A stretch of 64,000 nucleotides of DNA from NCBI RefSeq assembly GCF_027474845.2, contig NZ_CP107031.2:3239001-3303000 (forward strand), written 5' to 3'. The notes under the pieces were generated by a model that was given only the letters and a program-made list of their open reading frames with translations, was not told the DNA's origin and searched no databases. The number at the start of each line of letters is the position of its first letter. Positions within the stretch are counted from its first letter, which is position 1. The translations under genes were made by a program, and so were the position numbers. Below are positions 49,428 to 59,728 of this stretch, in pieces. This DNA is from Maribacter aestuarii (lineage in GTDB: Bacteria; Bacteroidota; Bacteroidia; Flavobacteriales; Flavobacteriaceae).

Positions 49428-51031
49428 CTAGTTTTTATCCGCTTTTAGGTTTACGCTATTTTCCGAATGAACGATATCATACATTATTTTATCTGCTAAC
49501 AAGCCACTACTCCAGATAATCCTCCCACAATGTTCTAAATGCCACATTGCTTTGTTGTCAATTACATTGCCTGCAAGCAAAGGCCCGGCAATAAAAAAAT
49601 TATCACTTGATTCAAAATCACTATTTATCTTAAAACCTATTTTTGACTTATTCGGTACGACTAGGGATTTTGATATTAATTTCTTAAGAAATTCAGGGGC
49701 ATCACTACTTTCAAGCGTAGTAGCGCCCATACAATTGATTATTAAGTGAATGTCCTTGTCAATATCTATTTTCTGCTGAGATGCCGTATCTACGTAGGTT
49801 ACCCTTAGACCATCCATATCTTCAATTTCATGAATCTTATAGAATCGTCCTGCAATATGATTTAATTTATCTCGCTGTTTTAATTCTTTGACTACACTAG
49901 TATAGTGAGACCCAGCGCATCGTTGTTTTCTACCAATATCGTTACCGTGAAAACATGCAAAATTTTCCAATTCATCATAGTGCAATAACCCTAGAAGACC
50001 TCCAATTTCACCAGAAATTGTATCAACAGTAGATGCGGCCCCTAGACTCATTTCATGTGCTCTGTCTAAATCTTCATATGCTGCCTTGGCTATGTCATTG
50101 GCAGTAATGACTTTTTTGCTTTTAAGGGCAGTTAGAGATTTTGGCTTAAAGTCCTTTCTTTTTCATAGTCAATGTCCGAATCTGGCATTAAACCATGGGA
50201 TGACAAAACGGTATAGCTGGTAATCTTGTCGTTTAAGTCAATGTGGTCCACAAAACTATATAGTGTCTCCAAGCCACTGGCGTTAGCACCAATTACTAGA
50301 ACATTTGTCGCTTTGCCATTTCTTGACCTAAGGAATTCTTTAATTAAACCTATATTGAATGAAAGATTTTTATTGTAAATATCATTAAGTACAAGATATC
50401 CATGACCTTTAATAATTAATTCTTCTTTGAAAATTTTTCTTGTAGGCAATGATCCTATAGACAGGACTATGTTTTCGCTGTAAATAGAAATCTCATTTTT
50501 TAGGATTACTTTGAACAAGTTGGTTTCTTTGTTAACATCTAAAACCTCGCCATTTGTGTATGTCATCTCAATTAGTCCAGCATTTTCACATCTACTGAGT
50601 TCACTGACAGTTTTTTCTCTAATAAATCTTCCAAAGAAAAATCTTGGAATATAAAGTTCGTTCCAATTATTTGAATCTATAAAAGGTCTATTGTTTTCTA
50701 CCCAGATTTTTGCTTGCTCCCCGCCATGCTCTAAAAACTCATCCAATAAAGACTCTTTCCTTTCATCTAACCATTGGACAAATAATAGACGCTCATCAGG
50801 CGGAAGAAAATTATTTAGGGCATTAATAAGCAAAACCGCCTTTCCAGATCTATCACCATAAGGTATACCCGCAAAGAAATCCGGTGATTTATCAATTATT
50901 CTTACCCTAAATGGTATATTTATTGGTTGTTCCGTGAGAATTTGCGTAATTCTCAACAACGCATAAGCGGTGGCAATCCCAGCTCCAATAAATGTTATAT
51001 TCTCTTTTTTCAATTCTATAGAATTAGTCAT
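49428..51031 (-). pseudogene. FAD/NAD(P)-binding oxidoreductase (NAD_binding_9-like), split by a frameshift
   Basis: The N-terminal half (to ~50155) has a FAD Rossmann motif ITFIGAGIATAYALL, the segment SPDFFAGIPYGDRSG..LLINALNN typical of the FAD-NAD(P)-binding family, and a second dinucleotide motif VLVIGANASGLET. The C-terminal half begins MSLGAASTVDTISGE... and ends ...LLADKIMYDIVHSEN. Adding one base to the A-run near 50155-50163 (minus strand GAAAAAGAAAGG) gives ...YEK-RKDFKPKSLTALKSKK..., continuous through 534 residues. The enzyme probably oxidises or hydroxylates a small substrate; identity unknown. It lies between the two FemAB paralogues. Confidence 0.72.
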
Positions 51032-52671: not shown

Positions 52672-54075
52672 TTAGTGTTTGACTATAAACTGTTTGCTCA
52701 AAATTTGATTTTCCCCTTTTAATTTAAGTAGGTAAGTGCCGTTTGATAGTTGGGAAATATCCAATCTTCCATTAAAACCTTCAGAATTAATATTTTGAGA
52801 AATCACTAGTTTTCCGGAAAAATCAAAAATTTCGATTACTAATAACTCAACATTCTGTGACTTAAATTCAAATTCTAAATTTATATGGGAATTTGCAGGG
52901 ACCGGCGAAAGAATAAGGTGGTTCTTGTCAATATTACTGCCTAAAACCGGCAGTCGCGCTGTCAAAGGAGTGGAGCCAATACAAAAGTTGGTAGACTCTG
53001 ATGTAGTAAAAGTGCCTCCTGATGCTAAAATGGTTCCATCGGATTTTGTTACGCTGTAATTTCCGTCGCCATATTGCCCACAGCATATGCCATCTCCATA
53101 GCTATCATAGATTACGAAATCATAACAACCCTGTTCCAAACATACACTTTCGGTCAGTGTTGTAAAGTCATCGGCATTTGTATACCCAGATCCCGATAAG
53201 ACCGCTACACCATTCGAATTTAAAAGCTCCCAAGAGGTCTCTCTGGCATAATCGTCAAATAGAATAGATACGGTAACTTCTTCACATGTATCGGAATCAC
53301 ATCCGTCCGGAATGCCATCATTGTCGCTATCTATCGAATCATCACTTCCTTCGCAGATGTCGTCATCGTCGCACACCCCGTCGTTGTCGGAGTCGGGGCA
53401 CGTGCCTCCTTCGGCTATGGTCGTTGTTCCCAGGTCCTGTTCGCAGTCTCCTTCTCCCCATCGTGTAAATATACGGTAGTCCCCAGGTGCAAGGTCCTGC
53501 ACGGTGAAGGAGCCACTGTCGTCCGGTACGCTGTAAGCCTGGGGCCAGGTGGCCCCGCCGTCGATACTGAACTCCATGGCAGTCCTCGTTCCACCGTTCA
53601 CCGCATCTTCCTGGAAGGTGAAGGTGATGGAGCCGTCGCTGGCGCCCGTCACCGTTTCGTCCGTACCGGCTACGGTTGCCGTGGGGACATCGGTGCCGGT
53701 ACAGGGTTCCGGGGTCCCGCATTCGTCGGGCGTTCCGTTGCCGTTGGTGTCCTCGAACAGGGTTATGTTCCTGAAATAGGAATCTCCTTCCGCGCTGGCA
53801 TCGTCGTCCGTTATCAGTACCATGTACCGGAAGGTCCCGTTAATGCGTGTTCCTATGGGCACGCTGTAGCTCTGCCATGTTCCGTCCCCTGGGTAGGGGG
53901 CTGCCGTAAAGTCACCTGCGTACCCTTGGTTCCCGTACACCACGGCCCCGGTCCTCTGGTTGAGGTCCAAGGTGTTCTGGTTGAAGGCGACCTCGTGTAT
54001 CTCCCCTTCGGTATCGCTCCTGAAGTCGAAGGTCAGCACTGTATTGGGCGTAAAGTCGTAATCTATCTCGATCAC
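52672..54075 (-). pseudogene. C-terminal part of the giant secreted protein, separated by an in-frame TGA; T9SS type A sorting domain
   Basis: This segment is in the same frame as the upstream part (54079-58011) and directly follows its TGA at 54079-54081. The junction reads TGNA-stop-KVIEIDYDFTPNTVLTFDFRS; homologous modules have Trp at that place (memory), so TGG-to-TGA is the simplest explanation. It then carries a repeated domain (TGASDGSITFTF), a second TSP3-like Ca-binding stretch (CPDSDNDGVCDDDDIC), a Cys-rich module (GDGICCGQYGDGNYS) and a C-terminal type A T9SS sorting domain (LILSPVPANSHINLEFEF...LSKQFIVKH). Without read-through this export signal is lost. Independent translation from a GTG at 54075 would lack a signal peptide and seems unlikely. 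Confidence 0.8.
53353..53400. repeat. 48-bp direct repeat, copy 1
   Basis: Identical base for base to 54253-54300. On the minus strand it encodes CPDSDNDGVCDDDDIC, a TSP3-like Ca-binding stretch. The sequences on both sides diverge at once, so the identity is sharply limited. Confidence 0.95.
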
Positions 54076-54078
54076 CTT

Positions 54079-57000
54079 TCAGGCGTTACCGGTCATATAG
54101 ATGGTGCTTCCCCCGTCCTGTAGGGCATAGGTGCCGTTGTCCTGTCCCGGAAAGGCCGTTATCTGGTAGTCGTTGAAGTTTGTTGCCGGACAACCCTCGC
54201 ATGCATCGGGTATGCCGTTTGCGTCCACGTCGATGGAATCGTCCCCTAGCGGGCAGATGTCGTCATCGTCGCACACCCCGTCGTTGTCGGAGTCGGGGCA
54301 GTTGTCGGCTCCCTCGGTAATGGTGACGAACTGGTTTGGGTTGGGTGCTGTTACCTCGTCGACTATGCCTGAGGGCCATCGGACCACTATCCTGTCTATT
54401 GTGGTGGCGCTCCCGATTCCGAAGTGCTGGGTGAAGGAGTTGAACACGCCGTAGCCCTCCCCGGACCTGACCTCCCTGATCTGCGTTCCCCACGGACCGT
54501 GGAGCTCGACTCTGGCGCCTATGCCGTTGACGTTGCTCTGTACGCCTGTTAGCTGTACGTTGAGGAAGTTGTTGGCGTTGCCCTGGTTGAGCCAGAGCCT
54601 GTCCTTGACGGTGGTGGGGGTGTTGAGCCCTGTGGCGTACCCGGCGTATATGTCCAGGAACCCGTCATGGTTCAGGTCGCCCACGGTAAAGGACTGTACG
54701 GTATTGGAGTTGAAGGGGTTGTCGGCGAGCGCGAAGGTGCCGTTCCCGTTGTTGTAGAACAGGAAGTGGTTGTCCCCGGAGACCATCAGGTCCAGGAACC
54801 CGTCGTTGTTGAAGTCCTTAAAGAACCCCTGTACGCCGTAGAGGTTCTCCGGTGCCAGTGTGGGCAGGAGTCCGCTCGATGCGGTGACCTCGGTGAAGGT
54901 CCCGTTCCCGTTGTTGCGCATCAGGTTGGGCCCGCTCCCGTGGTTGATGATGATGGCGTCCATGTCGCCGTCGTTGTCGATGTCCCCGAAATCGGTGAGC
55001 CACGTCTGCTCTCCGTTCTTGAGGTTGGCCGCCGCGGCGTCCTCTGTAAAGGTGCCGTCGCCGTTGTTGCGCATGAGCATGTTGATCCTCCTGGGGTCTG
55101 TGGGGTCGGTGACGCCCCCTCGGCACTTGGAGATGTAGAGGTCCAGGTGGCGGTCGTTGTCGTAGTCGACCCACATGCTGGCGTAGTTCCCGGAGTTGTC
55201 GCTCGCGGGCACGGTCTCGGTGTCGAGTATGGTCTCGTTGACGCTAAAGGTGCCGTCGCGGTCGTTGATGTATATGTTGGACTCCGCGTCGTCGTTACAG
55301 GCGAATATGTCGGCCCACCCGTCGTTGTCGATGTCGGCGAAGTTGCTGCCCTGTATGAACAGTAGCGGTCCCGGCAGGTATTGGGAGGTATAGGAGTCGT
55401 TGCCGTTGTTGTTGGCGATGACCTTTACCCCGTCGTAGTAACCTCCGGAGAGTATGTCGTTGTAACCGTTGTGGTCCATGTCCGCGACGGTGACGCTCCA
55501 CTGTATCCTACCGTCGTTGAGGATGTTGGGCACGGGCCCGAAGTTGTACTTGTCGAAGGGCTGTCCGGGTGCGTTCTGGTACTGTACGGAGAGGTTCCTT
55601 CCGTTGTCCAGCTGTACGATGTCGTCCCTTCCGTCGCCGTTCATGTCCGCGACGGCCATGACCAGGCCGCTGTAGTTGTCCCCCTGCAAGAGGGAGGTGG
55701 CCTCGGTGAAGGCCACTGCCGAAGCGTCCGTGCTCATGCTTACGGTGATCACTGTGGTGTCCTCTCCGGTGTCCTGCCCGTCGTCCACGGTCAGGGTCAC
55801 GGTATAGTCGCCCGGTGCGTCGTAGGTGTGGGCCACGGTCTCCCCTTGAGCCGTGGTGCCGTCCCCGAGGTCCCAGTCATAGGTGAGGGCGTCCCCGTCG
55901 GCGTCGGAGGAGGCGGAGGCGTCGAAGTCCACGGGCAGGGGTGCGGTACCGTTGGTGACCGATGCGGTGATCACGGCCTGTGGCGGGTTGTTGGCGATGG
56001 GCGTCAGGGAGTTTATCCAATCGGCGATGAGCTGCACGCCTGCGGCGTCCACGACGTCCTTGGCAATGGGGGGCATCTCCACGTTCTGCTGCAGGGAGTT
56101 CATCCTGTGGTGCATCAGGGAGCTCCCGGTCTGTTGGGGCACGACCACTTTACCATCGGGGAGTCCCAGGTCGTAGGCCACGTCCCCGTACACGATGTTC
56201 TGGTCCACGAGCGGGGTGGTGTAGCGCGCGTCGAACTGTGCGATGTTGTCCACGGTGGGGTTGTGGCAGCTGGCGCAGTTCACGTCTATGTAGCTCCTCG
56301 CCCTGTCCTCGAGGGACCTGGAGAGGTCGTCCTTTGCCGCCACGGCCATGTAGTTCCCCGCATTGGCTTCGGTGATGTTCTCGGCGATGATGCCCATCTC
56401 GCTCAGGTTGGCCAGCTGGTTGGCCGACACCCCCCCGGGATAGGTGATGGTCTTGTTCAGGTTCCTGGTCTTGGGCCCCAGTACGCTACCGTTCTGCGGG
56501 AAGTGGCAGGCCACGCACTCGGCCCTACTGGGATAGTGCCAGCTCTGCACAGTACCGTCGACGTCCACGTCCTCGTCCAGGGACCCCACCAACAGTTCGG
56601 CATCGGTCTGCGCGGCGTTCCACTTGTAGGTGAGGTAGTAGTAGACGTCGTCGTCCCCCTTGACCTCGAAGCGTGTCTCCAAGCGCTTTCCGCCGAGCTC
56701 GAAGTGCTTGATCAGCACGGACCCCCTGGGGAAGTCCCATGCATCGGTGTCGGAGAACACGATCTGCTCCTCCGCGGTATCGTGGGTGCCGTCGTTGGGC
56801 ACGGCCATCCACCTGGACTTGGAGGCGCCGTCCGACCAGAAGGGCTCCACCATCTCGTAGGGGACCACCCCGTCGCTGGCCGTGAGGGCGGCCAGGTCCG
56901 AGAAGGCGCCCGTCTCCGATAACAGGGCGGGGGCGAAGGGACCGCTAACGTCGTCCGGTGTACCCACCGGGAGGTTCCCGTTAAGGAACTTGCCGATGGC

Positions 57001-58011
57001 TCCATTACCACCGGTATTTATATTATTAAATTCATTGTAAATGGCCGTAAGTTCAGAGGGTGTTAGAGCAGCATTGTAAAATCCAGCCGCTTTCATTGTG
57101 CCATTACCATATTCTTTTAATCCGGTATTGCTTGGGGAACTTCTTAACCCATTAATCAAAATATCTAAATCTGGGTGACTCGTTGTACCCACTGTTGTGC
57201 CGGAATAGATTTCAATACCATTGTGGTATTTCTTGTGAATATTACCATTGACGGTTAGTGCAATTACATCTCCTTCCTGTATGGTTGCTGGGGTATTCCC
57301 ACTAAATCGATTTCCAATTACGCTAAAAATACCTGAATTGGAATAATTGAGTCCGAATTGCCCCTGGTTGTAATGGTATCCTTTGGAAAATAGCCAACAA
57401 CTAGAGGTTGAGCGCCTTTCACCAACTACGTATACCAGCGAAAAATTATCCGTGCCACCTACAAAATTTAGTGCATTCGTAATCTTACCTAAATTCAGTA
57501 AAGCGGTGGGTGCCGAAAAATCCAATTCCTTATCTCCATTGGATGCAATATTCACAGTAACATCTACTGCCGTAATAGTGGCAACGGATTTTTGGTCTGT
57601 CACAGAAATAACCAGGTCTCCATCGTTGCCTAATTGCTCTTCCCCAGTAATCCATGTGACCAATGATGGTAAGTCTGCACTGATCGGAATTAAGGGTGCA
57701 AAGGCTGAAGAGAATATATGCTCATCATAAGGTATCTTTGGTGACTTTTTTAAAATGTCTTTTTGTTTGATTGAACCTTTTAAATTTTCTTTGGAAACAG
57801 AATTATAAATAAGGGAGAATCGATTTGAGTCAAAATCAACACCATTAATTACATCATTGACATTGAGCATTACCAAATCCTCATTTAAAAGTTCATCTGG
57901 ATGAGATTTAAACGCTGTGTAACCAATAATAATTAATACCACAATCAAGGATGCAAAGGCTAACATTACCCCTTTGTCCATTTTAAATGTTCTTTTATTC
58001 ATACAATCCAT
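54079..58011 (-). CDS. Giant multidomain secreted protein: LamG + diheme cytochrome c-like + PKD + FG-GAP + ASPIC/UnbV
   Basis: 1310 residues before an in-frame TGA. Start at 58011 or 58002 (MNKRTFK...). N-terminal helix (~12-30); a LamG-like domain (~130-310); a region with two heme-binding CxxCH motifs, CVACH (~498) and CASCH (~577), similar to the SO2930/TIGR03806 family (SDGVVPYEMVEPFWSDGASK; MHHRMNSLQQNVEMPP). Then a PKD domain (~675-755, SASSDADGDALTYDWDLGDG), FG-GAP repeats (~765-1130), an ASPIC/UnbV domain (~1150-1230, VRSGEGYGVFNSFTQHFGIG) and a TSP3 stretch (~1237-1265). It continues in the same frame after the TGA. Most of it has a GC-rich, foreign-looking base composition. Probably a surface protein with possible redox capacity. 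Confidence 0.85.
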   Translation of the reverse strand: MDCMNKRTFKMDKGVMLAFASLIVVLIIIGYTAFKSHPDELLNEDLVMLNVNDVINGVDFDSNRFSLIYNSVSKENLKGSIKQKDILKKSPKIPYDEHIFSSAFAPLIPISADLPSLVTWITGEEQLGNDGDLVISVTDQKSVATITAVDVTVNIASNGDKELDFSAPTALLNLGKITNALNFVGGTDNFSLVYVVGERRSTSSCWLFSKGYHYNQGQFGLNYSNSGIFSVIGNRFSGNTPATIQEGDVIALTVNGNIHKKYHNGIEIYSGTTVGTTSHPDLDILINGLRSSPSNTGLKEYGNGTMKAAGFYNAALTPSELTAIYNEFNNINTGGNGAIGKFLNGNLPVGTPDDVSGPFAPALLSETGAFSDLAALTASDGVVPYEMVEPFWSDGASKSRWMAVPNDGTHDTAEEQIVFSDTDAWDFPRGSVLIKHFELGGKRLETRFEVKGDDDVYYYLTYKWNAAQTDAELLVGSLDEDVDVDGTVQSWHYPSRAECVACHFPQNGSVLGPKTRNLNKTITYPGGVSANQLANLSEMGIIAENITEANAGNYMAVAAKDDLSRSLEDRARSYIDVNCASCHNPTVDNIAQFDARYTTPLVDQNIVYGDVAYDLGLPDGKVVVPQQTGSSLMHHRMNSLQQNVEMPPIAKDVVDAAGVQLIADWINSLTPIANNPPQAVITASVTNGTAPLPVDFDASASSDADGDALTYDWDLGDGTTAQGETVAHTYDAPGDYTVTLTVDDGQDTGEDTTVITVSMSTDASAVAFTEATSLLQGDNYSGLVMAVADMNGDGRDDIVQLDNGRNLSVQYQNAPGQPFDKYNFGPVPNILNDGRIQWSVTVADMDHNGYNDILSGGYYDGVKVIANNNGNDSYTSQYLPGPLLFIQGSNFADIDNDGWADIFACNDDAESNIYINDRDGTFSVNETILDTETVPASDNSGNYASMWVDYDNDRHLDLYISKCRGGVTDPTDPRRINMLMRNNGDGTFTEDAAAANLKNGEQTWLTDFGDIDNDGDMDAIIINHGSGPNLMRNNGNGTFTEVTASSGLLPTLAPENLYGVQGFFKDFNNDGFLDLMVSGDNHFLFYNNGNGTFALADNPFNSNTVQSFTVGDLNHDGFLDIYAGYATGLNTPTTVKDRLWLNQGNANNFLNVQLTGVQSNVNGIGARVELHGPWGTQIREVRSGEGYGVFNSFTQHFGIGSATTIDRIVVRWPSGIVDEVTAPNPNQFVTITEGADNCPDSDNDGVCDDDDICPLGDDSIDVDANGIPDACEGCPATNFNDYQITAFPGQDNGTYALQDGGSTIYMTGNA
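54253..54300. repeat. 48-bp direct repeat, copy 2
   Basis: Identical to 53353-53400, exactly 900 bp away (300 codons) and in the same reading frame. Together the copies flank the premature TGA at 54079-54081. Confidence 0.95.
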
Positions 58012-58339: not shown

Positions 58340-59728
58340 ATGAGAAGAGATAAACCTATAATTGCGCTTGCCACTCCTTCAGGTTCTGGAGCAATAGCCG
58401 TAATTCGTATTTCAGGAAATGAGGCAATAGAAATAGCATCAGCGGCTTTTAAATCTATTTCTGGAAAGATACTGAATCAACAAAAAAGCCATACCATACA
58501 CCTTGGTCATATTATGGATGGCGATCGGTTGTTGGATGAAGTCCTGATTTCGGTATTTAAAAGTCCAAATTCTTATACTGGAGAAAATGTAGTAGAAATT
58601 TCTTGTCATGGCTCATTGTTCATTCAACAAGAGATTATCCAATTATTTTTACGAAGGGGCTGTCGCACTGCAAAAGCTGGTGAATTTACCCTTAGGGCAT
58701 TCTTAAATGGAAAAATGGATTTGAGTCAGGCAGAGGCTGTCGCTGATCTCATTGCTTCCGAAACAGAAGCCAGTCATCAAGTTGCATTACAACAAATGCG
58801 TGGTGGATTTAGTAATCAGATAAAAAAACTAAGGGACGAATTAATACAATTTGCCTCCCTTATTGAACTGGAACTGGATTTTGCGGAGGAGGATGTAGAA
58901 TTTGCCAATCGAGAGCAGTTTGAGGTTTTATTGGATAAAGTAGGAAATATTTTAAAAAGATTGATAGATTCTTTTGCCATTGGAAATGTAATAAAAAGTG
59001 GTATTCCAGTAGCTATTGTTGGCGAACCCAACGTAGGAAAATCAACTTTGTTGAACGCTCTTTTAAATGAGGACCGGGCATTAGTTTCAGAAATTGCTGG
59101 AACTACAAGGGATACTGTAGAAGATGAGATCTCCATTGGAGGATTTGGTTTCCGTTTTATTGATACGGCCGGAATCCGAGAAACTGTTGACGTAGTTGAG
59201 GGGATGGGTATACAGCGAACTTTTGAGAAAATTGCCAGCGCCCGGGTTATTATCTATCTCATAGAGGCTCAAAAAGTCAGAAATGAGATTGAGCGATATA
59301 AAGCAGAGATCGATAACATTTCTGCTAAATATCCCAAGACGCCGTTAATAATTATTGCCAATAAGTTAGATATGGTAGGTGATGAAGAGAGGGCGCATAT
59401 TCAATCTCAAATTAATAATGTGCATTTATTATCAGCTAGGGATGGTAAAGGGGTAGAAGACTTGAAAATAAGGTTATTAGAACTTATAAATGCCGGGGCC
59501 ATTCATAGTCAGGAGACCATTATTACCAATACAAGACATTATAATGCTTTACTGAAGTCATTGGAAGAAGTTGATAAAATAAAATTAGGCCTAGAGGAAG
59601 ATGTTTCAGGTGACCTTTTGGCTGTTGACATACGACAAGCACTTTATTATCTAGGGGAAATAACCGGTGAAATTACATCCGACGATCTTTTAGGAAATAT
59701 ATTCGCCAATTTCTGCATCGGGAAATAA
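58340..59728 (+). CDS. mnmE: tRNA modification GTPase MnmE
   Basis: 462 residues, full length. The N-domain (IIALATPSGSGAIAVIRISG; SYTGENVVEISCHGS; AGEFTLRAFLNGKMDLSQAEAV) binds the folate cofactor. The G domain has G1 GEPNVGKST (~228-236), the TTRD switch, G3 DTAGIRE and G4 NKLD. The C-terminus is the classic FCIGK with its catalytic Cys. With MnmG it installs the cmnm5 group on U34 of several tRNAs. CpsB-type phosphatase follows by 29 bp. Confidence 0.98.
   Translation: MRRDKPIIALATPSGSGAIAVIRISGNEAIEIASAAFKSISGKILNQQKSHTIHLGHIMDGDRLLDEVLISVFKSPNSYTGENVVEISCHGSLFIQQEIIQLFLRRGCRTAKAGEFTLRAFLNGKMDLSQAEAVADLIASETEASHQVALQQMRGGFSNQIKKLRDELIQFASLIELELDFAEEDVEFANREQFEVLLDKVGNILKRLIDSFAIGNVIKSGIPVAIVGEPNVGKSTLLNALLNEDRALVSEIAGTTRDTVEDEISIGGFGFRFIDTAGIRETVDVVEGMGIQRTFEKIASARVIIYLIEAQKVRNEIERYKAEIDNISAKYPKTPLIIIANKLDMVGDEERAHIQSQINNVHLLSARDGKGVEDLKIRLLELINAGAIHSQETIITNTRHYNALLKSLEEVDKIKLGLEEDVSGDLLAVDIRQALYYLGEITGEITSDDLLGNIFANFCIGK

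Follow-up and report, generated by a model that had tools for sequence, protein, structure and literature searches.

A gene for a predicted secreted surface protein of the ASPIC/FG-GAP type IX class, encoded on the reverse strand of a 64-kb stretch of Maribacter aestuarii DNA (the window; part of a 3.86-Mb genome assembled as a single contig), contains a strongly GC-rich part between AT-rich ends. On balance, this part appears to have been enriched in place by GC-biased gene conversion (gBGC) between paralogues and repeats, while the main rival, a donor origin of the core, is considered unlikely. The evidence comprises the composition borders of the gene, a paralogue in the same genome and the conversion tract shared with it, concerted evolution in a related gene pair, and a link across the genus between repeats of at least 90% identity and raised G+C content at third codon positions (GC3).

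An earlier, sequence-only reading of the stretch had placed the composition change within one reading frame; the gene is not one open frame, as an in-frame TGA at 54079-54081 divides it into the open reading frames (ORFs) 54079-58011 and 52672-54075. Besides its AT-rich N-terminal part, the protein has a core in which two CxxCH motifs occur; PKD, FG-GAP and ASPIC domains, acidic repeats and a sorting tail of the type IX kind are also present. All four Pfam domains expected of the class (FG-GAP, PKD, UnbV_ASPIC and Por_Secre_tail) are present, in agreement with the earlier domain reading, but its LamG and cytochrome c domains found no match in the gene product at E <= 1e-3; the translation does show both CxxCH motifs. 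The features of the gene are as follows, with the basis of each in brackets.

52672..58011, reverse strand: whole surface-protein gene, broken by one in-frame stop (same-frame ORFs; Pfam FG-GAP_3, PKD_4, UnbV_ASPIC, Por_Secre_tail)
57001..58011, reverse strand: AT-rich N-terminal part, GC3 0.31, without a homologue found and absent from the paralogue (composition, homology search, paralogue alignment)
53362..57000, reverse strand: GC-rich part, G+C 0.614, GC3 0.89 falling to 0.74 (composition)
56037..56999, reverse strand: conversion tract, 92-100% identical to the paralogue in 75-nucleotide windows (paralogue alignment)
55180..55620, reverse strand: diverged patch, identity with the paralogue mostly 61-83% in DNA and 64% in protein, closest protein P0002 (paralogue alignment, protein comparison)
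54253..54300, reverse strand: 48-bp direct repeat, copy 1, acidic repeat (self-comparison)
53353..53400, reverse strand: 48-bp direct repeat, copy 2, near the right composition border (self-comparison; identical to copy 1)
53401..54252, reverse strand: GC-rich inter-repeat segment, whole-length second copy not found in the genome (genome search)
54079..54081, reverse strand: in-frame TGA stop (ORF reading)
52672..53361, reverse strand: AT-rich tail that carries a type IX secretion sorting domain (Pfam, composition)

The G+C content is 0.371 in the N-terminal part (57001-58011), 0.614 in the GC-rich part (53362-57000) and 0.386 in the tail (52672-53361), against 0.372 in the remaining window. 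The counts given earlier, 16 G+C in 60 at 57781-57840 and 38 in 60 at 54901-54960, are exact, and the change from AT-rich to GC-rich and back along the gene is borne out by both the G+C and the GC3 profiles. A three-segment fit to the third codon positions places the borders at 57000 and 53493, with GC3 of 0.31, 0.85 and 0.37, and the largest 100-codon deviation (40.4) was never approached in 200 within-gene permutations, none of which exceeded 20.4. Among 258 background ORFs of at least 200 codons, drawn from 20 evenly spaced 20-kb stretches of the window's genome and from the stretch with the SprB-like gene discussed below, GC3 averages 0.359 (standard deviation 0.049) with a maximum of 0.52, and the 1670 100-codon windows of those 20 stretches (400 kb) reach at most 0.61. 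The composition jump is thus far beyond chance. The return to AT-rich sequence had been put at about 53.3 kb; a border does lie near there, close to the repeat copy at 53353-53400 (53493 in the fit), but GC3 has already fallen from 0.89 to 0.74 near 54402.

The core has one relative in its own genome, at about 598.4-603.1 kb of the contig (G000:C1), after genes read by eye as the trp operon. This paralogue is likewise a composition mosaic and likewise broken, by a frameshift. Homology between the two genes begins at gene nucleotide 1013, which is position 56999, i.e. at the left composition border (57000). In 75-nucleotide windows the first kilobase (56037-56999) is 92-100% identical; identity then falls to 61-88% for 0.8 kb, recovers to 88-96% for some 0.5 kb and is 76-84% thereafter, a profile that supports the gene conversion proposed from the sequence alone. 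In the diverged patch, where 66 proteins were compared, the window gene is nearest to P0002, while the paralogue is nearest to P0013, P0004 and P0003 and is less GC-rich. Sequences from two lineages of the family have thus become partly alike through gene conversion. In the paralogue, the more closely a 120-nucleotide window resembles the window gene, the higher its GC3 (Spearman 0.87, p = 1.8e-7, 22 windows); the same correlation is weaker in the window gene (Spearman 0.47, p = 0.028). The paralogue also contains a tandem acidic-repeat array (L007, 8400-9750) with a G+C content of about 0.6-0.68, followed by abruptly AT-rich sequence.

Of 35 genomes of the genus, 23 gave matches, and the family's genes were fetched from these, chosen by protein match and not by composition; many of them are mosaics of the same kind. 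Which domain is GC-rich differs between species: in G005 it is an N-domain of GSDH type, related to sequences in G034 and G007, in G002 and G023 the GC-rich segments are repeats of the discoidin and Ig types, and further species have others. Most of the GC-rich segments have a near-identical copy within the same genome. Where copies at least 90% identical occur in the same locus, the GC3 excess over the unique part of the ORF is positive in all 17 ORFs, with a mean of +0.258 (Wilcoxon p = 1.5e-5), whereas copies at 75-90% identity show a positive value in 9 of 28 cases and a mean of -0.009. The 17 ORFs stem from 13 loci in 13 genomes, out of 54 genus loci, have at least 60 codons in repeats and were measured with amino-acid-corrected GC3. 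They are partly dependent, as L162 and L174 contribute two each and L185 three, and L174 and L175, like L197 and L198, are orthologues. Two L158 ORFs and a further one from L185, also raised in GC3, fell outside the size limits, and L153 was omitted because it is contained in L185.

A tandem gene pair in G005 and G034 is 99.67% identical within G005 and 99.93% within G034, but only 81.9% between the two species, with 77.3% between species in the unique downstream part; by these identities, the pair is shown to undergo concerted evolution. The homogenised part has a GC3 of 0.67-0.70, against 0.32-0.33 where the longer copies are unique. This GC-rich pair is related to AT-rich homologues in the genus at 69-71% protein identity, the nearest without a near-identical copy being that of G030 (71%), with a GC3 of 0.37 overall.

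A SprB-like ORF of the window's own genome, unrelated to the window gene, behaves similarly. SprB-like genes were found by Pfam search and some of the best were fetched. In this ORF a 99.95% identical tandem repeat has a GC3 of 0.60, and the rise begins and ends with the repeat, while the unique part stands at 0.31 and an older repeat of 79% identity at 0.27. Among orthologous SprB repeats of eight species, the local GC3 shift rises with within-genome identity (r = 0.21, permutation p = 0.0028), a small effect, and windows at 98-100% identity are shifted by +0.036 (n = 16).

Were the GC-rich part an import, the core would have come from a GC-rich bacterium and spread to the second locus by conversion, the other GC-rich segments of the genus being separate imports; we regard this as unlikely, though it has points in its favour. 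The full core was not found in the 35 same-genus genomes, 23 of which gave matches of 41-49% identity that span no more than about 415 residues (with at most nine candidates scored per genome), and E <= 1e-150 was reached in two of 397 family genomes, one of them the window's own. This near-absence makes acquisition of the gene as such probable. Moreover, the window core has a high G+C content along its whole length, including places where that of the paralogue is lower, and its use of leucine TTR codons (4 of 61) is of the GC-rich type, which enrichment in place would also give. The high-GC donor proposed in the sequence-only reading nevertheless finds no support among the relatives of the core. 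A search of 5.8 billion proteins (7986 candidates scored, best 120 of 2797 matches) gave P0002, at 76% identity, as the nearest protein among the matches listed, with many others at 66-70%. Among the matches listed from proteins, GTDB genome contigs (best 80 of at least 485 relatives), viral contigs (29 loci, identity at most 37%) and the genus and family genomes, there was no close GC-rich relative of the core. The nine relatives with readable DNA at 60-68% identity are AT-rich, with GC3 of 0.21-0.40, and their loci match, by eye, the composition of their surroundings; an ancestral composition bias of the family is ruled out, as the relatives follow the composition of their own genomes. P0002, judged from its protein only, has an AT-type amino-acid make-up. 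Its GARP/FYMINK value is 0.77 and those of 29 relatives are 0.70-0.92, against which the window core is an outlier at 1.05. At conserved sites the core has 14 changes toward GC codons and four away (p = 0.031), and among 29 control rows an equally strong lean from nine or more changes occurs once (P0041, 7 to 2, p = 0.18).

The arginine codons of the core also argue against a donor, being of the resident type: the share of AGG among AGG, CGC and CGG is 16 of 23 in the core, 858 of 1560 in the genome sample and 184 of 1826 in 14 GC-rich comparison loci (Fisher 2.5e-11), which were hand-picked and have single-locus AGG shares of 0.04-0.42. The core thus showed no closest relative from a GC-rich genome that shares its codon preferences, with P0002 judged by its protein only. 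The GC-rich N-domain of G007 and the G005/G034 pair likewise have AT-rich homologues in the genus (61-67% and 69-71% protein identity, respectively), and the duplicated part of the otherwise AT-rich SprB gene behaves alike. Searched separately, as the earlier reading had proposed, the core, the following segment and the tail share one set of relatives of the same layout (P0009, P0016, P0018 and P0026), the comparison for the latter two parts being confined to the 120 proteins on the core's list, while the N-terminal part matched only the window's own protein and no relative of it was found.

Somewhat less probable still is a spread of mobile domain modules: certain domains, discoidin-type ones for example, would be GC-rich by nature in these genomes and pass as copies from gene to gene, with duplication a consequence of GC-richness and not its cause. 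Discoidin-type units are indeed GC-rich in G002, G023, G030 and G010, even though that of G030 is single-copy, and units in G026 and G033 have GC-rich nearest relatives. The ceiling of 0.61 on GC3 in the host-genome windows gives no sign there of a pool of GC-rich single-copy modules, however, the affected domains are of several kinds according to a Pfam run on two genus proteins, and the units of G007 and G028 have AT-rich nearest relatives. Selection acting on the codon usage or the expression of surface proteins is very unlikely. Strong cases in the genus are mainly found in large surface-type proteins, but such genes were those sampled; GC3 shifts at repeat borders inside one reading frame, the excess survives amino-acid correction, and genus repeats of 75-90% identity show none on average. 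A weak hint in the same direction comes from the untranslated leader and spacer shared by ribosomal RNA (rRNA) operons, with G+C of 0.48 and 0.43 against an intergenic-like 0.31, a comparison confounded by RNA function. The two rRNA operons lie in G000:C1 877001-887000 and 3105001-3115000 (L257 and L258); leader and spacer were measured outside transfer RNA genes, and the operon stretch consists of N beyond about 5.1 kb. An assembly chimera of two organisms, to which the abrupt border within one contig might point, is the most improbable explanation of all, given that the like pattern occurs in 13 genus assemblies and that the second locus lies in the same single-contig genome.

Several observations weigh against enrichment by conversion. 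Where identity with the paralogue drops to 63-75%, the window gene still has a GC3 of 0.82-0.88, and the GC-rich segment 53401-54252 has no partner copy found in the genome. The GC-rich tracts of G007 and G030, predicted to have a second copy, have none, and so the partner expected for every GC-rich tract is lacking in places, although a past partner would suffice. The relatives of the G007 tract in G033, G004 and G011, at 61-67% identity, have GC3 of 0.16-0.24, and those genomes carry two family copies each; loss of a former partner in G007 is plausible. Some GC-rich units have GC-rich nearest DNA relatives in the set, namely the discoidin-type units of G002, G023, G030 and G010, that of G026 with G025 and that of G033 with G004; N runs lie within the GC-rich repeat region of G026 and G025 (L164 and L168). 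The excess is weak in three of the 17 ORFs (L177, with a 96% repeat, +0.04; L197, +0.05; L198, +0.08), one repeat of 75-90% identity in L185 is raised by +0.30, and in the G005/G034 pair the second tandem copies have raised values even in their short unique parts, 0.55 (L162) and 0.57 (L185). The arginine fingerprint of the SprB repeat is uninformative (0 of 5 AGG). Beyond the genus (103 loci), repeats of at least 90% identity are positive in 14 of 21 cases with a mean of +0.049 and those of 75-90% in 11 of 18 with a mean of +0.046, hence no threshold is seen, and L093 (815 codons), L241 (two ORFs) and L251 are clear negatives.

Strong cases do occur in other genera of the Flavobacteriaceae (L238, 0.60 against 0.29; L242, 0.48 against 0.29), and the force may be lineage-specific or may depend on the duration of exchange between copies. 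L238 (5425-19999) is a SprB-like gene with GC3 of 0.50-0.78 in its first repeat block and mostly 0.2-0.3 elsewhere.

Under GC-biased conversion, near-identical copies in one genome, here the gene and its paralogue and elsewhere tandem paralogues or internal repeats, would go on trading sequence through homologous recombination. Heteroduplex mismatches would be resolved more often to G or C, presumably through a repair bias, and the G+C content of the shared segment would climb until the copies diverge or one is lost. GC3 would then rise only where a near-identical partner exists or recently existed and stay at the genome level elsewhere, and since enrichment would be limited to segments with a partner, sharp composition borders would arise at the ends of homology. 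The partnerless GC-rich stretches of the window gene would once have had a partner. The exchanging near-identical copies, the raised G+C content of converted segments and the absence of a mean excess in genus copies of 75-90% identity are as expected under this mechanism.

Around the gene, a gene with FAD/NAD(P)-binding similarity at window positions 49428-51031 is seemingly split over two frames (PF13454 in the ORF 50132-51031), and genes of about 510 amino acids with a similar start stand next to the family gene in several genomes of the genus (L156, L159-L161, L164, L167 and L168). MnmE, encoded at 58340-59728, has at most 74% identity to any other protein among the matches listed, a sign of a poorly sampled lineage.

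By sequence (76% identity to P0002), the window gene belongs to the ASPIC/FG-GAP/PKD type IX surface proteins of Flavobacteriaceae, some of which are named in their source as TIGR03806 family, and differs from them in its composition, its N-terminal part without relatives and its interrupted frame. Rhs genes of enterobacteria, which are a different protein family, are likewise large and are described (PMC2935791) as having a G+C-rich conserved core with an A+T-rich C-terminal tip. In mammalian X-chromosome palindromes, segments kept near-identical by conversion are likewise described (PMC8981503) as GC-richer than their single-copy flanks, with human palindrome arms at 46.3% GC against 41.2% in the flanks; the present case is bacterial and the shift is far larger, with GC3 going from about 0.3 to 0.6-0.9 in strong cases. 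Among bacteria, gBGC from recombination was proposed by Lassalle et al. 2015 (PMC4450053), where recombining genes have higher GC; that study compares genes with and without evidence of recombination, and paralogues and duplicates go unmentioned in the text searched, whereas the contrast here lies inside single genes at the ends of intragenomic homology. Ely (PMC8153448) states that bacterial gBGC has not been observed, and a 2026 preprint on paralogue conversion in M. tuberculosis (PMC13061034) gives GC content as not associated with conversion frequency. Among the results listed by a literature search that covered few subscription journals, there was no report of GC enrichment in bacterial paralogues through conversion.

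The existence of gBGC in bacteria is disputed, and intragenomic repeats supply an internal control, the unique rest of the gene, which removes many confounders. It is a tentative conclusion, close to evenly poised, that strong gBGC acts within Flavobacteriaceae genomes, raising GC3 from about 0.3 to as much as 0.9, shifting amino acids and turning near-identical DNA into a GC island. If so, these genes would provide a direct test system for bacterial gBGC and a composition-based marker for recombining surface-protein repeats, and intragenic GC islands should not be taken as foreign DNA by default. The same process could also underlie other bacterial GC-rich cores of multi-copy genes that are usually taken as foreign.

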